Source: Desulfobacula toluolica Tol2
GTDB lineage: Bacteria; Desulfobacterota; Desulfobacteria; Desulfobacterales; Desulfobacteraceae
NCBI RefSeq assembly: GCF_000307105.1
Contig: NC_018645.1
Span: 1,314,578-1,378,577 of the forward strand
Direction of reading: 5' to 3'
Length of the DNA stretch: 64,000 nt
The position numbers and the translations under genes were made by a program. The first letter of the stretch is position 1. Every line of letters starts with the position of its first letter. Shown here one piece after another: positions 27,919-36,358 of the stretch. The notes under the pieces were generated by a model. It ran no database searches. It saw only the letters and a program-made list of their open reading frames with translations, and was not told where the DNA came from.

Positions 27919-29103
27919 ATGTTTTTTGTAGACAAACCCTATATCTCTGAGTTTTTTAAAACAACCCTCAGGGACAATGCCATTCCTGTGGTTGCTACGG
28001 ATATGGCAAAACAGTTAGATCTGTATGGCCAGACAAAATTGATCAGTGAGGATGAGGCTGTTAAAATAGTCCAAGACAAGGACGATACTATCATTTATAC
28101 CACATCTGAAAATTCAATAGGTTGGATATCCAAGCATTTAAAATTCAATTGTCTGCCCCAAAAAATAGCCTTGTTTAAAGACAAAGTGAAATTTAGAGAG
28201 CTGACCCGGTCAATCTTTCCTGATTTTTATTTTAAAGAGGTTTTGATTGAAGATTTGAAGAAAATCCGGTTTGATCAACTTCCCTTGCCCTTTATTATCA
28301 AGCCCAGTGTCGGTTTTTTCAGCATGGGGGTGTACAAGGTTTCAAATTATGCGCAGTGGGGTGATACGATTGAGTCTATTTTTGTACAAATAGAGCAAAT
28401 CAAAGATTTATATCCTCAACAGGTGTTAAGTACACGCTCTTTTATTATTGAACAATGTATTGACGGCGATGAGTTTGCTGTTGACGCTTATTATAATTCA
28501 ATTGGTGAACCGGTCATTTTAGGCATCCTCAACCATACGTTTGCTTCGGACACAGATGTCAGTGACAGGGTTTACAGTTCATCCAAAGTGATTATTGAAA
28601 ATAATCTTGAAGAATTTACGGATTTTGCCGGGAAAATAGGCAAGCTTGCCGGGGTAAAAAATTTTCCTGTACATATTGAACTTAGACGGCAAACAAATGG
28701 AACCTTATTGCCCATTGAGGTCAATCCCATGCGGTTTGGCGGCTGGTGTACCACTGCTGATTTATCCTTTCTGGCCTATGGATTTAATCCTTACCTTTAT
28801 TATTATCAGCAAAAAAAACCGGATTGGCATGAGGTTCTCAAAGGAAAAGAAGGCAAACTATTCAGTGTTGTTGTATTGGATAATTCCACGGGCATAGACG
28901 TGGAAGATATCTCATCGTTTGATTATGACAAGCTGGTTTCAAATTTTGAAAATCCCTTGGAATTAAGAAAAATTGATTATAAAAAGTATCCTGTCTTTGG
29001 GTTTTTGTTTACGGAAACCAGGGAAGATAATTTTATTGAACTCAAAAACATACTGGATTCAGACTTGAACGAATTTATATCAACCAATGCTAAAATGGCA
29101 TGA
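27919..29103 (+). CDS. ATP-grasp domain protein, substrate unknown
   Basis: A 394-residue soluble protein. The ATP-grasp fold is suggested by LPFIIKPSVGFFSMGVYKV, FIIEQCIDGDEFAVDAYYN, and PIEVNPMRFGGWCTTADLSFLAYGFNPYLYYY, which holds the Mg-binding E-x-N. Such enzymes ligate a carboxylate to an amine or thiol through an acyl phosphate. No partner biosynthesis gene is adjacent, so substrate and product are unknown. It follows the FTCD-like gene by 45 bases and may be in the same operon. Confidence 0.8.
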   Translation: MFFVDKPYISEFFKTTLRDNAIPVVATDMAKQLDLYGQTKLISEDEAVKIVQDKDDTIIYTTSENSIGWISKHLKFNCLPQKIALFKDKVKFRELTRSIFPDFYFKEVLIEDLKKIRFDQLPLPFIIKPSVGFFSMGVYKVSNYAQWGDTIESIFVQIEQIKDLYPQQVLSTRSFIIEQCIDGDEFAVDAYYNSIGEPVILGILNHTFASDTDVSDRVYSSSKVIIENNLEEFTDFAGKIGKLAGVKNFPVHIELRRQTNGTLLPIEVNPMRFGGWCTTADLSFLAYGFNPYLYYYQQKKPDWHEVLKGKEGKLFSVVVLDNSTGIDVEDISSFDYDKLVSNFENPLELRKIDYKKYPVFGFLFTETREDNFIELKNILDSDLNEFISTNAKMA

Positions 29104-29485
29104 TTTTTTGGATCATATATGCACACTCATCTTGGAACATGTGAGTACCCTGTATGGAAGACATTGATAGAGCCTGCCATGTCGGATGGAGAAACCCCAA
29201 TAAGTTATGATTAATTAAAGTAGGAGGGGCTTGGATATAAAAAAACATTTAATATGATCAGTTATTGAACTGAGCATATTAAATGAATATCAATCAATTT
29301 CCCTTTTAGCTTGACCCATAAGTTTCCATGCCATATACTCGTTTACCATTTAAGATTGCTTAATTTAATTGCGGCTATTTGCTTGTTAGCTTGCAACTGT
29401 TAGTTTGCAAAGCATTGATAACAAATCCGAATTTTGGATTCCGGCAAAGGCTGTAAAATTTCCAATACATTTTAGGAGGTTACGT
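29104..29485. other. 382-bp gap with a long hairpin before the thiolase gene
   Basis: No gene is evident. At 29246-29285 a hairpin pairs CATTTAATATG with CATATTAAATG (11 bp), then after one mismatch TCAGTT with AACTGA, closing a four-base loop. It has 17 pairs and could be an operator or leader structure. A 14-bp imperfect tandem repeat, TGTTAGCTTGCAA / TGTTAGTTTGCAA, lies at 29384-29411. Confidence 0.6.
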
Positions 29486-30652
29486 ATGGGTAAAGTAGGA
29501 GTTATTGGAGTAGGCCAAAGTTCCTTTGTTCGAGGCTACCCTGGTTCGATCAAAGAACTGGCTTTTGAAGGTTTCAGTGACGCTTTAAAGGATGCGAATA
29601 TTAAAACAACAGATATAGCTGCTTCTGTTGTCTGTTCTTCTCCGGAATATGATAAACAACGTTCAGCTGCAGGCGTAATGGCAGAATATCTGGGTCTGAC
29701 CCCTCAGCCAACATTTTATGTGGAAACTCTTTGTTCTTCAAGCAGCACGGGCGTAAAAGTTGCTTATTCTCTCATTGAATCCGGTCTTCATGATGTTGTT
29801 GCAGTTGTTGGTTTCCAGAAGATGTCGGAAATCACATCAGCCGAATCACAGGAAAGAATGGGACGTGGAGCTGATATTCAGTGGGAAAGCCCGTTTGGGA
29901 CAATGATGCCCGCTTATTATGCCATGTATGCCCAGGGACATATGGCAAAATATGGTACTACGCCTGATGATCTGGCACTTATCAGAGTTAAATCATCTAC
30001 ATATGGACAAATTAATGACCGGGCAGTATATCGCAAGCCCGTAACATTTGAAATGTTCAAAGATCCCAAAAGCCCCATGTCAAATCCAGTTGCAAGCCCT
30101 CTTCGGGTAGGAGATTGTTGTGCAAACGCTGACGGCAGCTCATGTATTATCCTGGCAAATGAGGAAAAAACAAAGCAGTTCGCTAAAAAACCTGTATGGA
30201 TCAGGGGTATCGGTGCTGCATCCACTACGGTAAATCTTGCCGGAAGAGACGTTTTTTCAGGCCTTACAGCCGGTGAAATGGCAGGTGCCGAAGCATACAA
30301 AATGGCAGGTATCACACCTCAGCATATTGATGTTGCAGAAGTTCATGACTGTTTTACCATTGCAGAGATGATGGCCTATGAAAATCTTGGTTTTGCAAAA
30401 CCTGGAGAGGGAAAAGACCTGATCAAGAGCAAGGAAACCTACAAAGAGGGAAGCATCCCTGTTAACGTAGACGGCGGACTGCTCTCAAAAGGACATCCCA
30501 TCGGAGCCACAGGCGGATCACAAATAAGAACTATAGTTCTTCAGCTGAGAGGCGAAGCAGGCGAAATGCAGGTAAAAGATCCTGAATTCGGATTGGTCCA
30601 TAACATTGGTGGCGTAGGCCTGTATGGTAATGTCACCATTTTTGGGAGGTAA
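29486..30652 (+). CDS. Thiolase family acetyl-CoA acyltransferase (SCP-x type)
   Basis: AGGAGG just before the ATG at 29486 fixes the start (MGKVGVIGVGQSSFVRG), giving 388 residues; an upstream frame extension to 29405 is not supported. The nucleophilic Cys is in VETLCSSSSTGVKVAY, and the C-terminal catalytic segment is GHPIGATGGSQIRTIVLQL, with VAEVHDCFTIAEM. The subclass is the one that works with a DUF35 partner, here the next gene. Such pairs include the benzoylsuccinyl-CoA thiolase of anaerobic toluene degradation and other acyl-CoA thiolases; the substrate here is not determined. Confidence 0.88.
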   Translation: MGKVGVIGVGQSSFVRGYPGSIKELAFEGFSDALKDANIKTTDIAASVVCSSPEYDKQRSAAGVMAEYLGLTPQPTFYVETLCSSSSTGVKVAYSLIESGLHDVVAVVGFQKMSEITSAESQERMGRGADIQWESPFGTMMPAYYAMYAQGHMAKYGTTPDDLALIRVKSSTYGQINDRAVYRKPVTFEMFKDPKSPMSNPVASPLRVGDCCANADGSSCIILANEEKTKQFAKKPVWIRGIGAASTTVNLAGRDVFSGLTAGEMAGAEAYKMAGITPQHIDVAEVHDCFTIAEMMAYENLGFAKPGEGKDLIKSKETYKEGSIPVNVDGGLLSKGHPIGATGGSQIRTIVLQLRGEAGEMQVKDPEFGLVHNIGGVGLYGNVTIFGR

Positions 30653-30655
30653 GAA

Positions 30656-31087
30656 ATGGGAAAAAGAGAAGTAGACGATAGATTTAAAAAATTTGGAACG
30701 GTTAGTTTTACCTCCATAACAAAGGTGAACGATTTTGTAACCAAACTTGAAGAAGGTAAAGTAAGCGGAACCTGCTGCAAAGGATGCGGAGAAAAGTATT
30801 TTCCTCCCAGAGCAGACTGTGCCAAGTGCCTTTCAAGAGAAATGGACTGGTTTGATGTTCAAGGAAAAGGCATTTTGCGTACTTACAGCAAACTGGAATT
30901 TGCACCCATTGGTTTTGAGGCTGATGTCCCCTATTCAATCGCACTTCTTGACTATGGCGATTACAAGGTCTTTGGCAGATTAGACAGCTCCATCCCAGAC
31001 GATGAAGTAAAAATCGGTATGGAGATGACTACGGTCACAAATGTACTGTCAAACGGTCAGCTTAATTATATCTTTAAAAAAGCATAA
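30656..31087 (+). CDS. DUF35 zinc-ribbon/OB-fold partner of the thiolase
   Basis: A 143-residue protein with a rubredoxin-like zinc ribbon (CCKGCGEKYFPPRADCAKC) followed by an OB-fold (GILRTYSKLEFAP, VPYSIALLDYGDYKVFGRL). DUF35 proteins bind SCP-x-type thiolases and are needed for activity in characterised pairs. GGGAGG before the ATG and a three-base gap to the thiolase gene show tight coupling. The operon ends at a terminator at 31116. Confidence 0.9.
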   Translation: MGKREVDDRFKKFGTVSFTSITKVNDFVTKLEEGKVSGTCCKGCGEKYFPPRADCAKCLSREMDWFDVQGKGILRTYSKLEFAPIGFEADVPYSIALLDYGDYKVFGRLDSSIPDDEVKIGMEMTTVTNVLSNGQLNYIFKKA

Positions 31088-31236: not shown

Positions 31237-33357
31237 ATGCAGTACAATGACAGATCCAATTGCGGCCGACTGGGGTCGGCCGATATCGATAAAACCGTTC
31301 ATCTTGCAGGCTGGGTTGATGCGCTTCGGGACCACGGGGAAGTACTTTTTGTCCATCTCCGGGACAAAAGCGGGATTGTGCAACTGGTTTTCAGCCCTGA
31401 ATTTACCCCGGAAGAAATTTGCCGGCAATCCACATCCCTTAGAAGTGAATATTGCATTACTGTTTTTGGCAGAATCGTAAAACGGGCAGAGGGAACGGAA
31501 AATCCAAATATTGAGACCGGAGACATTGAAATCATCGTAACCGATATGACAATCCTTAGCCGGTCAGACAACCTTCCGTTTCCCATTTCTGAAAAAGCCA
31601 TGATGGGCAGCACAAATGAAACCATAAGCCGCGAGCCGGTATCCGAAGATTTAAGGCTTCAGTACCGCTATCTGGATCTTAGACGTCCTGGTATGCAGCA
31701 GTTTCTCATCAAACGGCACAAAATCAACGCCTGTGTTCGTGAGTTTCTGGACCAAAATGAGTTTATCGAGGTTGAAACACCGATCCTGACCCGGAGTACG
31801 CCGGAAGGCGCAAGGGATTATCTGGTTCCCAGCAGAGTTAATCCAAAGCATTTTTATGCCCTGCCGCAGTCCCCGCAGCTGTTCAAGCAGCTGCTCATGG
31901 TGGCTGGCTTTGAGCGATACTACCAGATCACCCGGTGCTTCAGAGATGAAGACCTGCGATCCAATCGCCAGCCCGAGTTTACCCAGCTGGACCTTGAAGC
32001 ATCTTTTATTGATGAAGAGTTTATTTTTAATCTTATAGAAGAATTGTTGTGCCGGATGTTTGAAATCGGTGGAACAAATCTTCCAAGGCCGTTTCCCCAC
32101 ATGACCTGGCAGGAAGCCATGGACAAAACCGGATCAGACCGGCCTGACCTGCGGTTTGAAATGTATTTTGTCGAGGCAACCGATATCTTTACACAGACAC
32201 GCTACAGCATCTTCAAACAGATCCTTCAGCGGGGCGGGGTGATCAAGGGAATTAACGTCAAACAGGCCTCTGAGAGCCTGAGCAAAAATGTTCTCCAGAA
32301 TGAATACGCAAAACAGATAGTTCCAGGCTTTGGTGCCAAAGGCATGACCTGGATGCGGGTGACTGGAGATCAGCTTGATTCCAATATTGTTCAGTTTTTC
32401 AGCAAAGAAGAACAACAAACCATAATCAAGCGATTTAATGCCTCGGATGGAGACGTGATTCTCATCATAGCAGATCCTTCTCTGGAACTTGTCAATTCGG
32501 CTCTTGGGCGTCTCAGGCTCCATGTTGCGGATCGCCTTGATATGATTCCCAAAGATAAATTCGTACCTGTCTGGGTTACGGATTTCCCATTGTTTGAGCC
32601 CACGGAAGAGGGAGTCACCTCCAGCCATCATCCGTTTACCGCACCGGATCGAATTGATTTTGATCCCGCTGACCAGGAAGACTTGCTATCTCTTTTATCC
32701 CGTTCCTATGATATTGTTGTCAATGGTGAGGAATTGGGCGGCGGCAGTATCCGTATCCATGATCCGGCTACCCAGCAGAAGGTTTTTGCAGCCCTGGGAC
32801 TTTCACCGAGTGAGGCAGAAGAAAAATTCGGGTTTTTTCTCCGGGCCCTTGATTTTGGTCCACCGCCCCATGGCGGACTTGCCCTTGGTATGGACCGGGT
32901 GGTGGCAATGATTATGAAAACCCCATCCATACGGGAAGTAACGGCCTTTCCCAAGAACAGAAGCGCTTTTTGTCCCCTGACCCAGGCACCATCCCTGGTG
33001 GCTCATGAGCAGCTGGCTGAACTGGGCCTGCTGGATCTTGGAAAAGCAGAATCATTGCCGGGTTCCGATCAGGAGCAGGATACCATTGACTACCTTTCAT
33101 GGGTTTCCAGGATCGGTTTTGAGGACAATGAACGTCCCATGATTGAAAGCGCGCTTGACGATGCAGTGAAAATGGCTCAAGCTGTCTTTGGCATTGCACA
33201 GGAATACGAGCCTGCCATCTCGGTTGTCCGGGGGCAAAATTGTTTCAGAAAGGGCAGTTCAGCAACTCGATCTTCATTCGTTGAAACCGGGGCGCTGTTA
33301 AAAAATGCACCTTCTGTAAAGGGAGATTATTTCAGGGTTGCAAGCATACTTGAGTAA
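31237..33357 (+). CDS. aspS: Aspartyl-tRNA synthetase fused to GatC
   Basis: A 706-residue protein, about 110 longer than usual bacterial AspRS. Residues 1-600 are complete AspRS: OB-fold tRNA-binding domain (HLAGWVDALRDHGEVLFVHLRD), class II motifs (RYLDLRRPGMQQFLI, RCFRDEDLRSNRQPEFTQLD), GAD insertion, and GGLALGMDRVVAMI. The tail (about 610-706) matches GatC: helical IDYLSWVSRIGFEDNE, then NCFRKGSS and the GatC-like ending LLKNAPSVKGDYFRVASILE. It should charge tRNA-Asp, and possibly tRNA-Asn, while carrying the amidotransferase clamp subunit. gatA-like and gatB genes follow. AAAAGGA lies upstream of the ATG. Confidence 0.93.
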   Translation: MQYNDRSNCGRLGSADIDKTVHLAGWVDALRDHGEVLFVHLRDKSGIVQLVFSPEFTPEEICRQSTSLRSEYCITVFGRIVKRAEGTENPNIETGDIEIIVTDMTILSRSDNLPFPISEKAMMGSTNETISREPVSEDLRLQYRYLDLRRPGMQQFLIKRHKINACVREFLDQNEFIEVETPILTRSTPEGARDYLVPSRVNPKHFYALPQSPQLFKQLLMVAGFERYYQITRCFRDEDLRSNRQPEFTQLDLEASFIDEEFIFNLIEELLCRMFEIGGTNLPRPFPHMTWQEAMDKTGSDRPDLRFEMYFVEATDIFTQTRYSIFKQILQRGGVIKGINVKQASESLSKNVLQNEYAKQIVPGFGAKGMTWMRVTGDQLDSNIVQFFSKEEQQTIIKRFNASDGDVILIIADPSLELVNSALGRLRLHVADRLDMIPKDKFVPVWVTDFPLFEPTEEGVTSSHHPFTAPDRIDFDPADQEDLLSLLSRSYDIVVNGEELGGGSIRIHDPATQQKVFAALGLSPSEAEEKFGFFLRALDFGPPPHGGLALGMDRVVAMIMKTPSIREVTAFPKNRSAFCPLTQAPSLVAHEQLAELGLLDLGKAESLPGSDQEQDTIDYLSWVSRIGFEDNERPMIESALDDAVKMAQAVFGIAQEYEPAISVVRGQNCFRKGSSATRSSFVETGALLKNAPSVKGDYFRVASILE

Positions 33358-33362
33358 CTGCT

Positions 33363-33494
33363 GCTGGCAAACCAAGGTAAAACACCACGTCTGCCCTTGG
33401 CAGTTTATATGAAAGACCTTTTAACCTGCTGAAATTAAATATCTTTCATTATTTGTTGTGGCAGAGTGATCTGTCATGGCCGTTATATAAAAAT
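33363..33494 (+). repeat. Dispersed structured repeat, copy C (compound)
   Basis: Two units share sequence. The first gives only a right part, GCAAACCAAGG through GTCTGCCCTTGGCAG. Its end, GGCAGTTTATATGAAAG, is also the left end of the second unit, which runs TTTTAACCTGCTGAAA, TTTGTTGTGGCAG, ATCTGTCATGGCCGTTATATAA. The ends TTTATAT and ATATAAA are inverted copies of each other. It fills the gap between aspS-gatC and gatA. Confidence 0.75.
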
Positions 33495-33517: not shown

Positions 33518-34753
33518 ATGGAATCTAAGATCTTTACCTATATAAATACCTCAACCCTGCCAGCGGCGGATGGCCCTATGGCTGATACCCGCGTGGCGGT
33601 TGAGTCCAACATATCCGTAGAAAACTGGCCCACGGATGCCCAATCCATGGCCCTTGAAAATTATGTGGCCCTTGAAGACGCTACGCTTATAGCACGCTTG
33701 CGCGATGCAGGCGCATACCTTAAAGGTAGAACCGCCATGGGCGAACTGGGTCTGGGCCTTGACAAGGATACAGGTGGTGATGCCGTAAAAAGCGACCTTT
33801 GTGATGTCGTACTCAAGACCGACACCACCGGGGAAGCAAGAATAGCAGCGCTAAGATCAGGTTGCTTTGGATTTAAGCCGAGTTACGGCCTTATTTCCCG
33901 TTGCGGCCTTATAGGCCTTGTTCCTTCAATGGAAAGCTGCGGCATACTTTCAAATTCTCTTGAGACGATTTCAACAACAGCCCGCACCATGGCCGGAGTT
34001 GATGAGCGTGATCCGTCCATGGATGAAGCCGGCATTGAGAAGGCCTTGTCCCAATTTCGTCAGCCTGAAGCATTTCAGGACAGTCCCATGACCATGGGTG
34101 TGATCTTAGACTGGAGTACGGCCATGGGTCAGGATGAAAATAAAGAGTTTGAACAGGCAGTTGAAAAACTGGACACGGCAGGAGTCAAGAGCAAGACAGT
34201 TGATATCAAGGATTTTTCTCTTGCCGGAACAGTTCACAACGTGATCGGAACAGTGGAAGCATCGTCCAGTGCCGGCAGGTTTGACAGTGTCAGGTACGGC
34301 CACAGAACAGGAACGTCGGTAAAAAACTGGAATGATATGTACATTCATTCCAGGGGCGAATCCTTTGGCCCGCTGGTCAAAGCCTATCTTTTCCAGGGAG
34401 GATATTTTCAATATCAGAACTATTCAGCATTTCTGGATGCCTGCCGCATCCGGGCCAGGCTAATTGAATCCGTTGAAAAAGCCTTTGAAACCGTGGACAT
34501 GATTGTTTTGCCCGTGTCGGGCAGATTTGGACAAACGCCTGAAAATCCAAACATTGTATCTGAGTTTTATGATGCTTTTTCATTGACCCTCCTTGCCAAC
34601 CTGACCGGGAATCCGTCGATTTGCATCCCAGGGTCTGTCAATGGTGATGCCGGAGGTCGGCCAGCCCTTCAGCTGATCGGTAAACGGTTTGATGACGCAA
34701 AATTGCTTGCCCTTGCAGGACGCGTATCCGATATCCATACAGGAGGGATGTAA
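33518..34753 (+). CDS. gatA: GatA-like protein lacking the amidase catalytic residues
   Basis: AAAAGGA seven bases before the ATG at 33518 sets the start; 411 residues against about 485 for GatA. The C-terminal half aligns well (RFDSVRYGHRTG, YIHSRGESFGPLVKAYLFQGGY, NLTGNPSICIPG, LQLIGKRFDD). The catalytic core does not. The Lys segment usually IKDN reads VESN (Glu29). The GGSSGGS loop with the cis-Ser is deleted. The segment usually SDTGGSIR reads TDTTGEAR, with Glu106 at the nucleophile. The usual N-terminal helical region is also missing. Glutamine hydrolysis by the known mechanism looks impossible, so it may be a structural subunit. It ends two bases before gatB. Confidence 0.85.
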   Translation: MESKIFTYINTSTLPAADGPMADTRVAVESNISVENWPTDAQSMALENYVALEDATLIARLRDAGAYLKGRTAMGELGLGLDKDTGGDAVKSDLCDVVLKTDTTGEARIAALRSGCFGFKPSYGLISRCGLIGLVPSMESCGILSNSLETISTTARTMAGVDERDPSMDEAGIEKALSQFRQPEAFQDSPMTMGVILDWSTAMGQDENKEFEQAVEKLDTAGVKSKTVDIKDFSLAGTVHNVIGTVEASSSAGRFDSVRYGHRTGTSVKNWNDMYIHSRGESFGPLVKAYLFQGGYFQYQNYSAFLDACRIRARLIESVEKAFETVDMIVLPVSGRFGQTPENPNIVSEFYDAFSLTLLANLTGNPSICIPGSVNGDAGGRPALQLIGKRFDDAKLLALAGRVSDIHTGGM

Positions 34754-34755
34754 TC

Positions 34756-36183
34756 ATGAAATATGAAGCAGTAATAGGTCTTGAAATCCATATACAGCTG
34801 AATTCGGCCACCAAAATATTTTGCGACTGCGCCAATACGCCGGGTGATGATCCAAACACCAATGTCTGTCCTGTATGCCTCTGGCTGCCGGGAGCCCTGC
34901 CGGTTTTGAGCCGGGAAGTACTGGAAAAGGCGACCCTTGCCTGTCTTGCCCTTAATTGTGAGATTCAGAGCGAAAGTGCCTTTGATCAGAAAGTCTATTA
35001 CTATCCTGATCTTCCCAAGGGTTTTCAGCTTTCCCAGGCACATAAGCCCCTTGCCAGAAAAGGCTGGGTGGAAATTCAGGACGAACAGGGTAATCCCAAA
35101 AAATTGCGGCTCCACCATGTTCATATGGAGGAAGATGTGGCAAAACTGGTTCATGAAACCGAAGGCCGTCTTCCCATAAGTCTGGTGGATTTCAACCGCG
35201 CAGGCACACCCCTTGTCGAAGTTGTCACTGAACCCGAGCTTAAAAGCCCTTATGATGCCATGGAATTTTTAAAGGCCATAAGAAACCAGGTGCGGTATAC
35301 GGGCTGTGCCGAGTGCAGCATGGAATCTGGAACCATGCGGTGTGATGCAAATATTTCCATTCGGCCGGAAGGCAGTGATCAGCTCAATACCAAGGTGGAA
35401 GTTAAAAACATGAATTCCATCCACCATGTGGGCGATGCCATTGCCTATGAGATCAAGCGTCAGATCGAGGCTGTCAACAACAATGAACCCATTATTTTGC
35501 ACACCCGGCTGTGGGACCCTGAAAAACATGTTACCACGGCCATGCGGGCCAAGTTTGAAGGCCCATGCATTCCCGATCCTTCGGTTCCGATGATAGTCCT
35601 GACCGACTCCTGGCTTGAAAAGATAAAAGCCCTTCTTCCTGAGATGCCCGGCCACAAGGTAAAAAGGTTTGTCCAGGACTATGCATTAACCCGGGACGAA
35701 GCAGTACTCATGAGTTCCGAACGGGGAATTTCCGAGTTTTTTGAATCAGTTGTTACTCTTGGCGCACCTGCCCGCATGACCGCCGGTTGGATGGCAACCC
35801 AGCTGCTTCCTGCATTAAAGGCCCACGGACAGACCCTGGCAGATACCAGTGTCACGCCTGAAAGATTTGCAGGCCTGATCCAAATGCTTGAAAAAAATGA
35901 GATCAATTCAAATTCAGCCAAGTCTGTGCTGGAAAAACTTTTTGATACTGATGGAACACCTCAGCAGATTGTTGATCAATTTGGTTTCAGACAGGTCTCT
36001 GATACAACTGAGCTTGCAAAAATAGTCGACAAGATTATTTTTGACAATGAGTCTGCAGTGACCAACTATAAAAACGGAAATAAAAAATCCATGGGATTCC
36101 TTGTGGGGCAAGCCATGAAAGTTTCCAAAGGCAAGGCCAATCCCAAGCTTGTCCAGGAGATGATCAAGGAACAGCTAGCGTAA
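34756..36183 (+). CDS. gatB: GatB, amidotransferase subunit B, with an altered loop
   Basis: A 475-residue GatB, which phosphorylates the tRNA-bound Asp or Glu and transfers ammonia to it. Kinase-site features are present: GLEIHIQL, a zinc site (FCDCANTPG ... VCPVC), YYYPDLPKGFQLSQ, HHVHMEEDVAK, SLVDFNRAGTPLVEVVTEPE and RCDANISIRP. The helical and YqeY tail domains are intact, ending MGFLVGQAMKVSKGKANPKL. Two changes stand out: the segment usually containing DYRYFPEPDL is shortened to KFEGPCIPDPSVP (266-278), and VCLGLPG reads VCLWLPG. It is last in the operon and is followed by a 13-bp hairpin. Confidence 0.93.
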   Translation: MKYEAVIGLEIHIQLNSATKIFCDCANTPGDDPNTNVCPVCLWLPGALPVLSREVLEKATLACLALNCEIQSESAFDQKVYYYPDLPKGFQLSQAHKPLARKGWVEIQDEQGNPKKLRLHHVHMEEDVAKLVHETEGRLPISLVDFNRAGTPLVEVVTEPELKSPYDAMEFLKAIRNQVRYTGCAECSMESGTMRCDANISIRPEGSDQLNTKVEVKNMNSIHHVGDAIAYEIKRQIEAVNNNEPIILHTRLWDPEKHVTTAMRAKFEGPCIPDPSVPMIVLTDSWLEKIKALLPEMPGHKVKRFVQDYALTRDEAVLMSSERGISEFFESVVTLGAPARMTAGWMATQLLPALKAHGQTLADTSVTPERFAGLIQMLEKNEINSNSAKSVLEKLFDTDGTPQQIVDQFGFRQVSDTTELAKIVDKIIFDNESAVTNYKNGNKKSMGFLVGQAMKVSKGKANPKLVQEMIKEQLA

Positions 36184-36263: not shown

Positions 36264-36358
36264 TTTATATGCAAGTCTTGAAAAATCCAAACCTTGACTT
36301 TCATGTTTTTTTGTGGGCAAACCAATGTGAAATAACAGATCTGCCTGTGGCAGTTATT
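36264..36358 (+). repeat. Dispersed structured repeat, copy D
   Basis: TTTATATGCAAGTC, a degenerate middle, TTGACTTTCATG, TTTTGTGGGCAAACCAATGTGA, AACAGATCTGCC, TGTGGCAGTTATT. It matches inverted copy F nearly end to end. Its right end overlaps the stop codon of the ferritin-like gene at 36354. Confidence 0.75.

Follow-up and report, generated by a model that had tools for sequence, protein, structure and literature searches.

A conserved cassette of an AspRS-GatC fusion, a GatA' without glutaminase residues and a rebuilt GatB' in Desulfobacula toluolica Tol2, with a probable role on aspartyl-tRNA

Introduction

Transfer RNA (tRNA)-dependent amidotransferases are assumed to require a glutaminase as partner. 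The closest described systems to the one reported here are the GatCAB amidotransferase (TIGR00132, TIGR00133, PF02686), the asparagine transamidosome formed by non-discriminating AspRS, GatCAB and tRNA-Asn (ND-AspRS/GatCAB/tRNA-Asn; PDB 3kfu, 4wj3), and the bifunctional AspRS/amidotransferase subunit C described by the model NF009460 (PRK12820). A stretch of 64,000 nucleotides from Desulfobacula toluolica Tol2 (NCBI RefSeq assembly GCF_000307105.1, contig NC_018645.1, positions 1,314,578 to 1,378,577 of the forward strand; hereafter the window) carries the genes aspS-gatC, gatA' and gatB' in this order, all on the + strand. They form a conserved three-gene cassette encoding an AspRS-GatC fusion (its synthetase part is called AspRS'), a GatA relative without glutaminase residues and a GatB relative with ATP/Mg2+ ligands in changed surroundings. 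Purifying selection acts on the cassette, whose host genome also carries a complete set of canonical GatCAB genes; a real function on aspartyl-tRNA is probable.

The cassette shares with GatCAB three homologous subunits, the amidase fold (GatA'), the ATP/Mg2+ ligands (GatB') and the adjacency of the genes. It differs in lacking the glutaminase residues, the Gln-binding Asp and the N-terminal helix, in the fusion of GatC to AspRS, and in a GatB' without the DYRYFPxPD(L/I) motif and three arginines. The asparagine transamidosome likewise places AspRS and GatCAB on the same tRNA; in the cassette the AspRS-GatC link is covalent and the glutaminase subunit has no active site. NF009460 matches the fusion protein end to end with identical domain architecture (residues 1-706 against 18-723, 1206.6 bits, below the curated cut-off of 1379), but describes one protein and not its partner genes. 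Carbamoyl phosphate synthetase I uses ammonia with a dead glutaminase domain, and AsnA is the ammonia-using counterpart of AsnB; these belong to other protein families and involve no tRNA, and the likeness, a glutaminase module kept inactive or an ammonia-using twin, is an analogy of working. Clostridium acetobutylicum resembles the present case in having an extra AspRS and an extra GatCAB in one genome, and the accessible part of that report mentions neither a fusion nor a lost GatA active site (PMC4206432).

No published account of the AspRS-GatC/GatA'/GatB' set was recognised in a literature search that had subscription literature largely outside its reach; one paper matched solely through the name of an artificial aspS-gatCAB operon plasmid. 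With a dead glutaminase, a transamidase that has been rebuilt and a synthetase built in, the cassette allows a direct test of whether a machine of this kind can work with free ammonia or has been diverted to a different reaction of Asp-tRNA. It also suggests that gatA, gatB or AspRS/GatC annotations in such genomes may not denote ordinary GatCAB. An earlier sequence-only reading of the window had drawn attention to gatA'; the AspRS-GatC fusion upstream, the retooled GatB' and the wide spread of the cassette go beyond it.

Loss of the glutaminase active site in GatA'

The gene gatA' (33518..34753, + strand) is, in agreement with the sequence-only reading, an intact open reading frame of 411 residues, and it is under purifying selection. 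Profile and homology searches gave GatA as the nearest kin of the protein, which has the amidase fold, lacks about 40 N-terminal residues of GatA and scores 228.3 bits with TIGR00132, below the curated cut-off of 481.1. An AlphaFold2 model (predicted local distance difference test, pLDDT, 85.3; predicted template modelling score, pTM, 0.89) is a confident amidase fold, and its best PDB matches are GatA chains.

Loss of the catalytic Lys, the cis-Ser loop and the nucleophile Ser had been proposed from alignment by eye, and all three are absent from 106 of 106 GatA' rows. These rows come from 26 carriers in the order sample and 80 named loci (see below), with some genomes shared, and 94 are distinct. 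The alignment references were the intact GatA of the same genome and four other canonical GatA. At the site of the catalytic Lys, canonical IALKDL is VAVESN, with E29 (codon 33602..33604, +) opposite K78 of the intact GatA in the same genome; the rows have Q (86), E (12), H (5), W (2) or R (1). The PGGSSGGS... loop, 22 alignment columns long, is missing at the junction between residues 94 and 95 (33797..33802, +). Canonical TDTGGS is TDTTGE, with S177 of the own GatA aligned to E106 (codon 33833..33835, +), and Glu occupies this position in every row.

The roles of GatA and GatB residues were taken from the accessible part of a study of yeast GatFAB, in which D418 binds the Gln amide (PMC4027206); their transfer to GatA' and GatB' positions is our own mapping. 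At the position of this Asp, 94 of the 106 rows have Phe; the Arg is kept in 104 and falls in a gap in the other two. The C-terminal half, earlier described as well kept, deserves the term in a relative sense only: identity to canonical GatA is about 30%, and in the last part of GatA' 10 of the 44 columns invariant in five canonical GatA are kept in at least 80% of the rows.

A substitute Lys/Ser set had been named as the finding that would overturn this interpretation. K120, S127, S137, S249 and S250 are invariant in GatA', and the residues aligned with them also occur in canonical GatA; the invariant K288 aligns with a variable canonical position, and the invariant columns suggest no new Lys/Ser constellation specific to GatA'. 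Lacking the residues of a Gln-dependent glutaminase, GatA' is predicted to be glutaminase-dead, and that it is a pseudo-glutaminase is regarded as nearly certain.

GatB' and its rebuilt surroundings

The product of gatB' (34756..36183, +) is a second GatB paralogue of 475 residues that scores 516.8 bits with TIGR00133, above the cut-off of 314.8; the ATP/Mg2+ and Zn ligands are kept and other residues of the active region are replaced. For the comparison, 88 distinct GatB' rows were set against 22 canonical GatB of the same order in window numbering, excluding loci L046 and L065, short rows and identical rows. The ATP/Mg2+ ligands E10 and H12 (E10-I-H12, 34783..34791, +), E125, E155 and N218/N220 are kept in 88/88 rows, as are K79, D85, K88, H123, E125-D127, D197, N199 and Cys at 23, 25, 38 and 41. 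New residues are also fixed or nearly so: N188 is replaced by S and A269 by G throughout, W43, F267, C271 and V277 are each found in 87/88 rows, and C187 in 86/88. At 35551..35586 (+), KFEGPCIPDPSV replaces KEEAHDYRYFPDPDL and is three residues shorter. Because the ligands are kept and other conserved residues are replaced, the kinase half of GatB' seems to be active and its acceptor or tRNA side altered.

In a quick tree with canonical GatB from the order only, a fully supported, long branch separates GatB' from 12 of the 22 canonical GatB. Near relatives in this tree are Desulfobacula and Desulfocicer.

The AspRS-GatC fusion

The gene aspS-gatC (31237..33357, +) encodes a bacterial AspRS, including the GAD domain, with a C-terminal GatC-like domain, 706 residues in all. 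The profiles tRNA-synt_2 (396 bits) and GAD (69 bits) match. The GatC-like domain (residues 628-701; 33118..33339, +) is a weak match, at 20.1 bits on the fusion protein, below the cut-off of 23, and at 24.3 bits, above it, in the genome search.

His31 and Gly82 (P. aeruginosa numbering), which we take to be the signature of non-discriminating AspRS, are present in 79/81 and 76/81 AspRS' rows, respectively. Aspartylation of tRNA-Asn by AspRS' is predicted from this signature, which is not specific to AspRS'; a division of labour between AspRS' and housekeeping AspRS by His31/Gly82 was rejected, as both carry it. In the AspRS tree the rows labelled canonical do not fall on one side of a branch, probably because L120 and L121 among them belong to the AspRS' type. 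Genomes G080 (L120 1096-2949) and G015 (L274, cut at its start) encode a stand-alone AspRS of this type that lacks a GatC domain and is possibly the source of the fusion.

Distribution and conservation of the cassette

In the order sample, 291 genomes drawn from a larger group, 26 have a GatA' ortholog, scoring at least 231 bits; the next best match has 136 bits. An adjacent aspS-gatC is present in all 26 carriers, truncated at contig ends in some; gatB' is present in 25, and in the remaining one a contig end has cut it off. Scanning named genomes for relatives gave 377, possibly including canonical GatA, in 393 candidate stretches. The best 80 loci were kept, all at least 41% identical in the best segment, and at least 12 of them are shared with the 26 carriers. 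Among the 80, aspS-gatC is present in 77 and gatB' in 79; of the exceptions, L149 and L186 start at a contig end, in L172 no aspS-gatC lies in the 1.9 kilobases (kb) upstream, and L175 contains a gap of about 1 kb.

Isolates or strains among the 80 are Desulfocicer vacuolatum DSM 3385, Desulfosarcina alkanivorans PL12 and Desulforhabdus sp. TSK; the other 77 are titled metagenome-assembled genomes, and the bins are for the most part Desulfobacterota-like. The 77 named rows in the GatB' tree comprise 37 Thermodesulfobacteriota, 21 titled 'Deltaproteobacteria' only (14 of them ranked Myxococcota by NCBI) and 19 from other groups, namely Acidobacteriota (3), Chloroflexota (3), Pseudomonadota (3), Nitrospirota (2), Planctomycetota (2), Lentisphaerota (2) and four groups with one each; rows titled to other groups may be misbinned. 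From their lineages we take the carriers to be mostly anaerobes. Plasmid carriage was rejected, the top-ranked plasmid match being 28.5% identical and annotated as ordinary GatA.

Relaxed selection, which would have pointed to decay, was not found in the relatives. In eight pairs of close relatives the ratio of nonsynonymous to synonymous substitution rates (dN/dS; Nei-Gojobori) is 0.14-0.27 for gatA', 0.07-0.12 for aspS-gatC and 0.07-0.11 for gatB', and with such low values the cassette is not decaying. GatA' changes fastest, with a median distance of 0.53 (GatB' 0.38, AspRS' 0.34), and the distances of the three proteins are correlated (r 0.89-0.93). No neighbouring family occurs in more than 5 of the 80 loci, counting open reading frames of at least 80 residues in flanks of up to 6 kb where available. 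The cassette likewise has no other constant neighbour in the order sample, antisense frames lying over its own genes being left out of account. No linked tRNA was found in the window, and the sole tRNA in 25 flanking loci is a tRNA-Glu. A short GatB-like remnant with two stop codons (G023:C3:12487-12720) is perhaps a dead cassette.

Canonical genes and tRNAs in the carriers

The contig that carries the window is single and has 5,197,905 bases. A search for a second, intact gatA, proposed as a check by the sequence-only reading, found one in the same genome with its own gatC, in the order gatC-gatA, together with canonical gatB and a stand-alone AspRS. LysRS, GluRS and GlnRS were also recognised by reading translations. 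A tRNA search yielded 48 Rfam matches among the 150 of 346 candidates that were scored. ARAGORN, run on these 48 places, revealed no odd Asp/Asn tRNA: it called one tRNA-Asn and two tRNA-Asp, and one weak match received no call. The acceptor end of tRNA-Asn is U1-A72, and that of the one tRNA-Asp that was read is G1-C72.

A canonical AspRS is present in 21 of the 26 carriers (19 full, 2 partial). Among the other five, G015 and G080 have the stand-alone AspRS'-type enzyme, and in G160, G234 and G095 the cassette-type AspRS alone was found, that of G095 as two pieces on two contigs. Canonical GatB was found in 22 carriers and not in G281, G234, G095 and G160, all of which have canonical GatA. 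In three of these four the contig with gatA ends within a few kb of it, so gatB is perhaps unassembled; in G160 (completeness 100) the contig continues with changed synteny. Within the sample, canonical GatB is missing from 4/22 good-quality carriers and 2/63 good-quality non-carriers (Fisher p 0.037, a comparison chosen post hoc). The loci L123/L124 (G234, G160) and L271 (G095), in genomes listed as 90-100% complete, have a cassette-type AspRS as the sole AspRS and GatB' as the sole GatB found.

Proposed mechanism and alternatives

Free ammonia, a borrowed glutaminase and a non-amidating complex had been offered as outcomes by the sequence-only reading; free ammonia is ranked first here, a choice that sequence alone cannot make. 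In the favoured mechanism, to which as a whole a probability of about 0.4 is given, the three proteins would form a covalently tethered, transamidosome-like complex. AspRS' would aspartylate tRNA (tRNA-Asn and/or tRNA-Asp), the fused GatC domain would clasp GatA' and GatB', GatA' would act as a non-catalytic scaffold, and GatB' would phosphorylate the side chain of the tRNA-bound Asp with ATP. As the complex has no glutaminase, the nitrogen would be free cellular ammonia, yielding Asn-tRNA(Asn). That ammonia is the substrate is far less certain than that GatA' is a pseudo-glutaminase. The energy cost per Asn-tRNA would be about 3 high-energy bonds with free ammonia, against about 4 with canonical GatCAB and about 5 with AsnB and AsnRS; if true, the lower cost would favour anaerobes that are short of energy and live where ammonium is plentiful. 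Yeast GatFAB uses NH4Cl, and more of it when truncation of GatF weakens the glutaminase, according to the accessible part of PMC4027206.

Several observations weigh against amidation with ammonia. The R-K-N of canonical GatB is replaced by Q78-K79-V80 (34987..34995, +), and R78, N80 and R270, each invariant in the canonical rows (22/22), are Q, V and P in 88/88 GatB' rows. R121, likewise present in 22/22 canonical rows, is kept in 0/88 (H 69, K 13, Q 4, N 1, E 1), and DYRYFPxPD(L/I) is found in 0/88, against 20/22 canonical rows and five GatB in the PDB. Switching the nitrogen source would not by itself predict these replacements. The GatB' model cannot show the role of the rebuilt places, because its pLDDT is below 50 at or beside them (residues 21-48, 82-92, 129-136, 138-148 and 267-273). 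An extra Asn route is not needed, because the genome already has AsnRS (L042, by reading translations), an AsnB-like gene, canonical GatCAB and a stand-alone AspRS. The housekeeping AspRS, too, carry His31 (20/21 rows) and Gly82 (17/21); 2 of these 21 rows proved to be of the AspRS' type. The cassette can also be lost and is dispensable in places, as is seen in the single-contig genome G252 (L046), where gatB' has a stop codon at W43 and aspS-gatC is broken, and in G279 (L065), where an in-frame deletion joins gatA' and gatB'.

Because of the GatB' changes, the main evidence against the ammonia mechanism, a changed chemistry and a non-catalytic role are both retained. In the first, which is regarded as unlikely, GatB' would activate Asp on the tRNA with ATP and pass it to another nucleophile (amine, hydroxylamine, thiol or sulfide) or another fate, GatA' would be a channel or binding module, and the product would be a non-standard aminoacyl-tRNA or a tRNA-bound intermediate. 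The residues Q78, V80, S188 and G269-P270, fixed in every row, and the nearly fixed W43, C187 and C271 argue for it in the presence of intact ATP/Mg2+ ligands, as do the fully supported long branch of GatB' and the ordinary Asn and Gln routes already in the host. Against it stand the want of a linked tailoring gene, any one neighbour family being present in at most 5 of the 80 loci, and a tRNA complement in which no extra Asp/Asn-type tRNA was found. In its boldest form this proposal describes a duplicated GatCAB, widespread but patchy in mostly anaerobic bacteria, that lost the glutaminase, rebuilt the transamidase (Q78, V80, C187-S188, P270-C271) and gives ATP-activated, AspRS-tethered Asp-tRNA to a nucleophile other than Gln-derived ammonia, making a new aminoacyl-tRNA; this form is regarded as improbable.

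A non-amidating complex is a doubtful alternative as well. GatA' and GatB' would here be non-catalytic, binding or protecting tRNA, stabilising AspRS' or holding Asp-tRNA, and the whole would serve as a regulated or stress-time AspRS. The absence of any amidase catalytic residue from GatA' and the conserved residues lost from GatB' are in keeping with this, and the cassette-type AspRS can probably charge tRNA-Asp, as it is the sole AspRS type found in three of the 26 carriers (G160, G234 and G095); in G015 and G080 the only other AspRS is a stand-alone enzyme of the same type. A mere binding module, however, would not need ATP/Mg2+ ligands kept in all GatB' rows, nor a gatB' as constrained as aspS.

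That GatB' and the fused GatC at times pair with canonical GatA, or take ammonia released by canonical GatCAB, is very unlikely. The genome does hold an intact GatA, and G281, G234, G095 and G160 gave GatB' as the sole GatB yet have canonical GatA; but GatA' is itself under constraint and is encoded next to its partners in every locus seen, which makes its use probable, and of the four contigs with gatA that of G160 alone runs on. A degrading remnant of a duplicated operon, to which the damage in G252 and G279 might point, is refuted for the family as a whole by dN/dS well below 1 in all eight pairs and by new residues that are fixed in GatA' (94 distinct rows) and in GatB' (88).

Spacing, repeat element and upstream genes

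The tight operon described earlier holds for gatA' and gatB', which are separated by 2 nucleotides with AGGAGG, and not for aspS-gatC and gatA', which lie 160 nucleotides apart here against a median of 14 in relatives. Of the 80 named loci, 76 could be measured for this second gap: 55 have 10-60 nucleotides, 10 have fewer than 10, and 3 have at least 150. The gap in the window contains the first copy of a 40-nucleotide element (33366..33405, +); the second lies downstream of gatB' (36316..36355, +), so that the copies bracket gatA'-gatB'. These are the two matches in the window, where none is expected by chance. The stretch 33355-33480 folds better than shuffled sequences (z -2.59). A 30-nucleotide pattern of the element was found in 6 of 274 loci, every one overlapping this place. 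Upstream, at 27919-31087 and outside the conserved cassette, lie open reading frames that by eye appear to encode an ATP-grasp protein, a thiolase and a DUF35-like zinc-ribbon protein.
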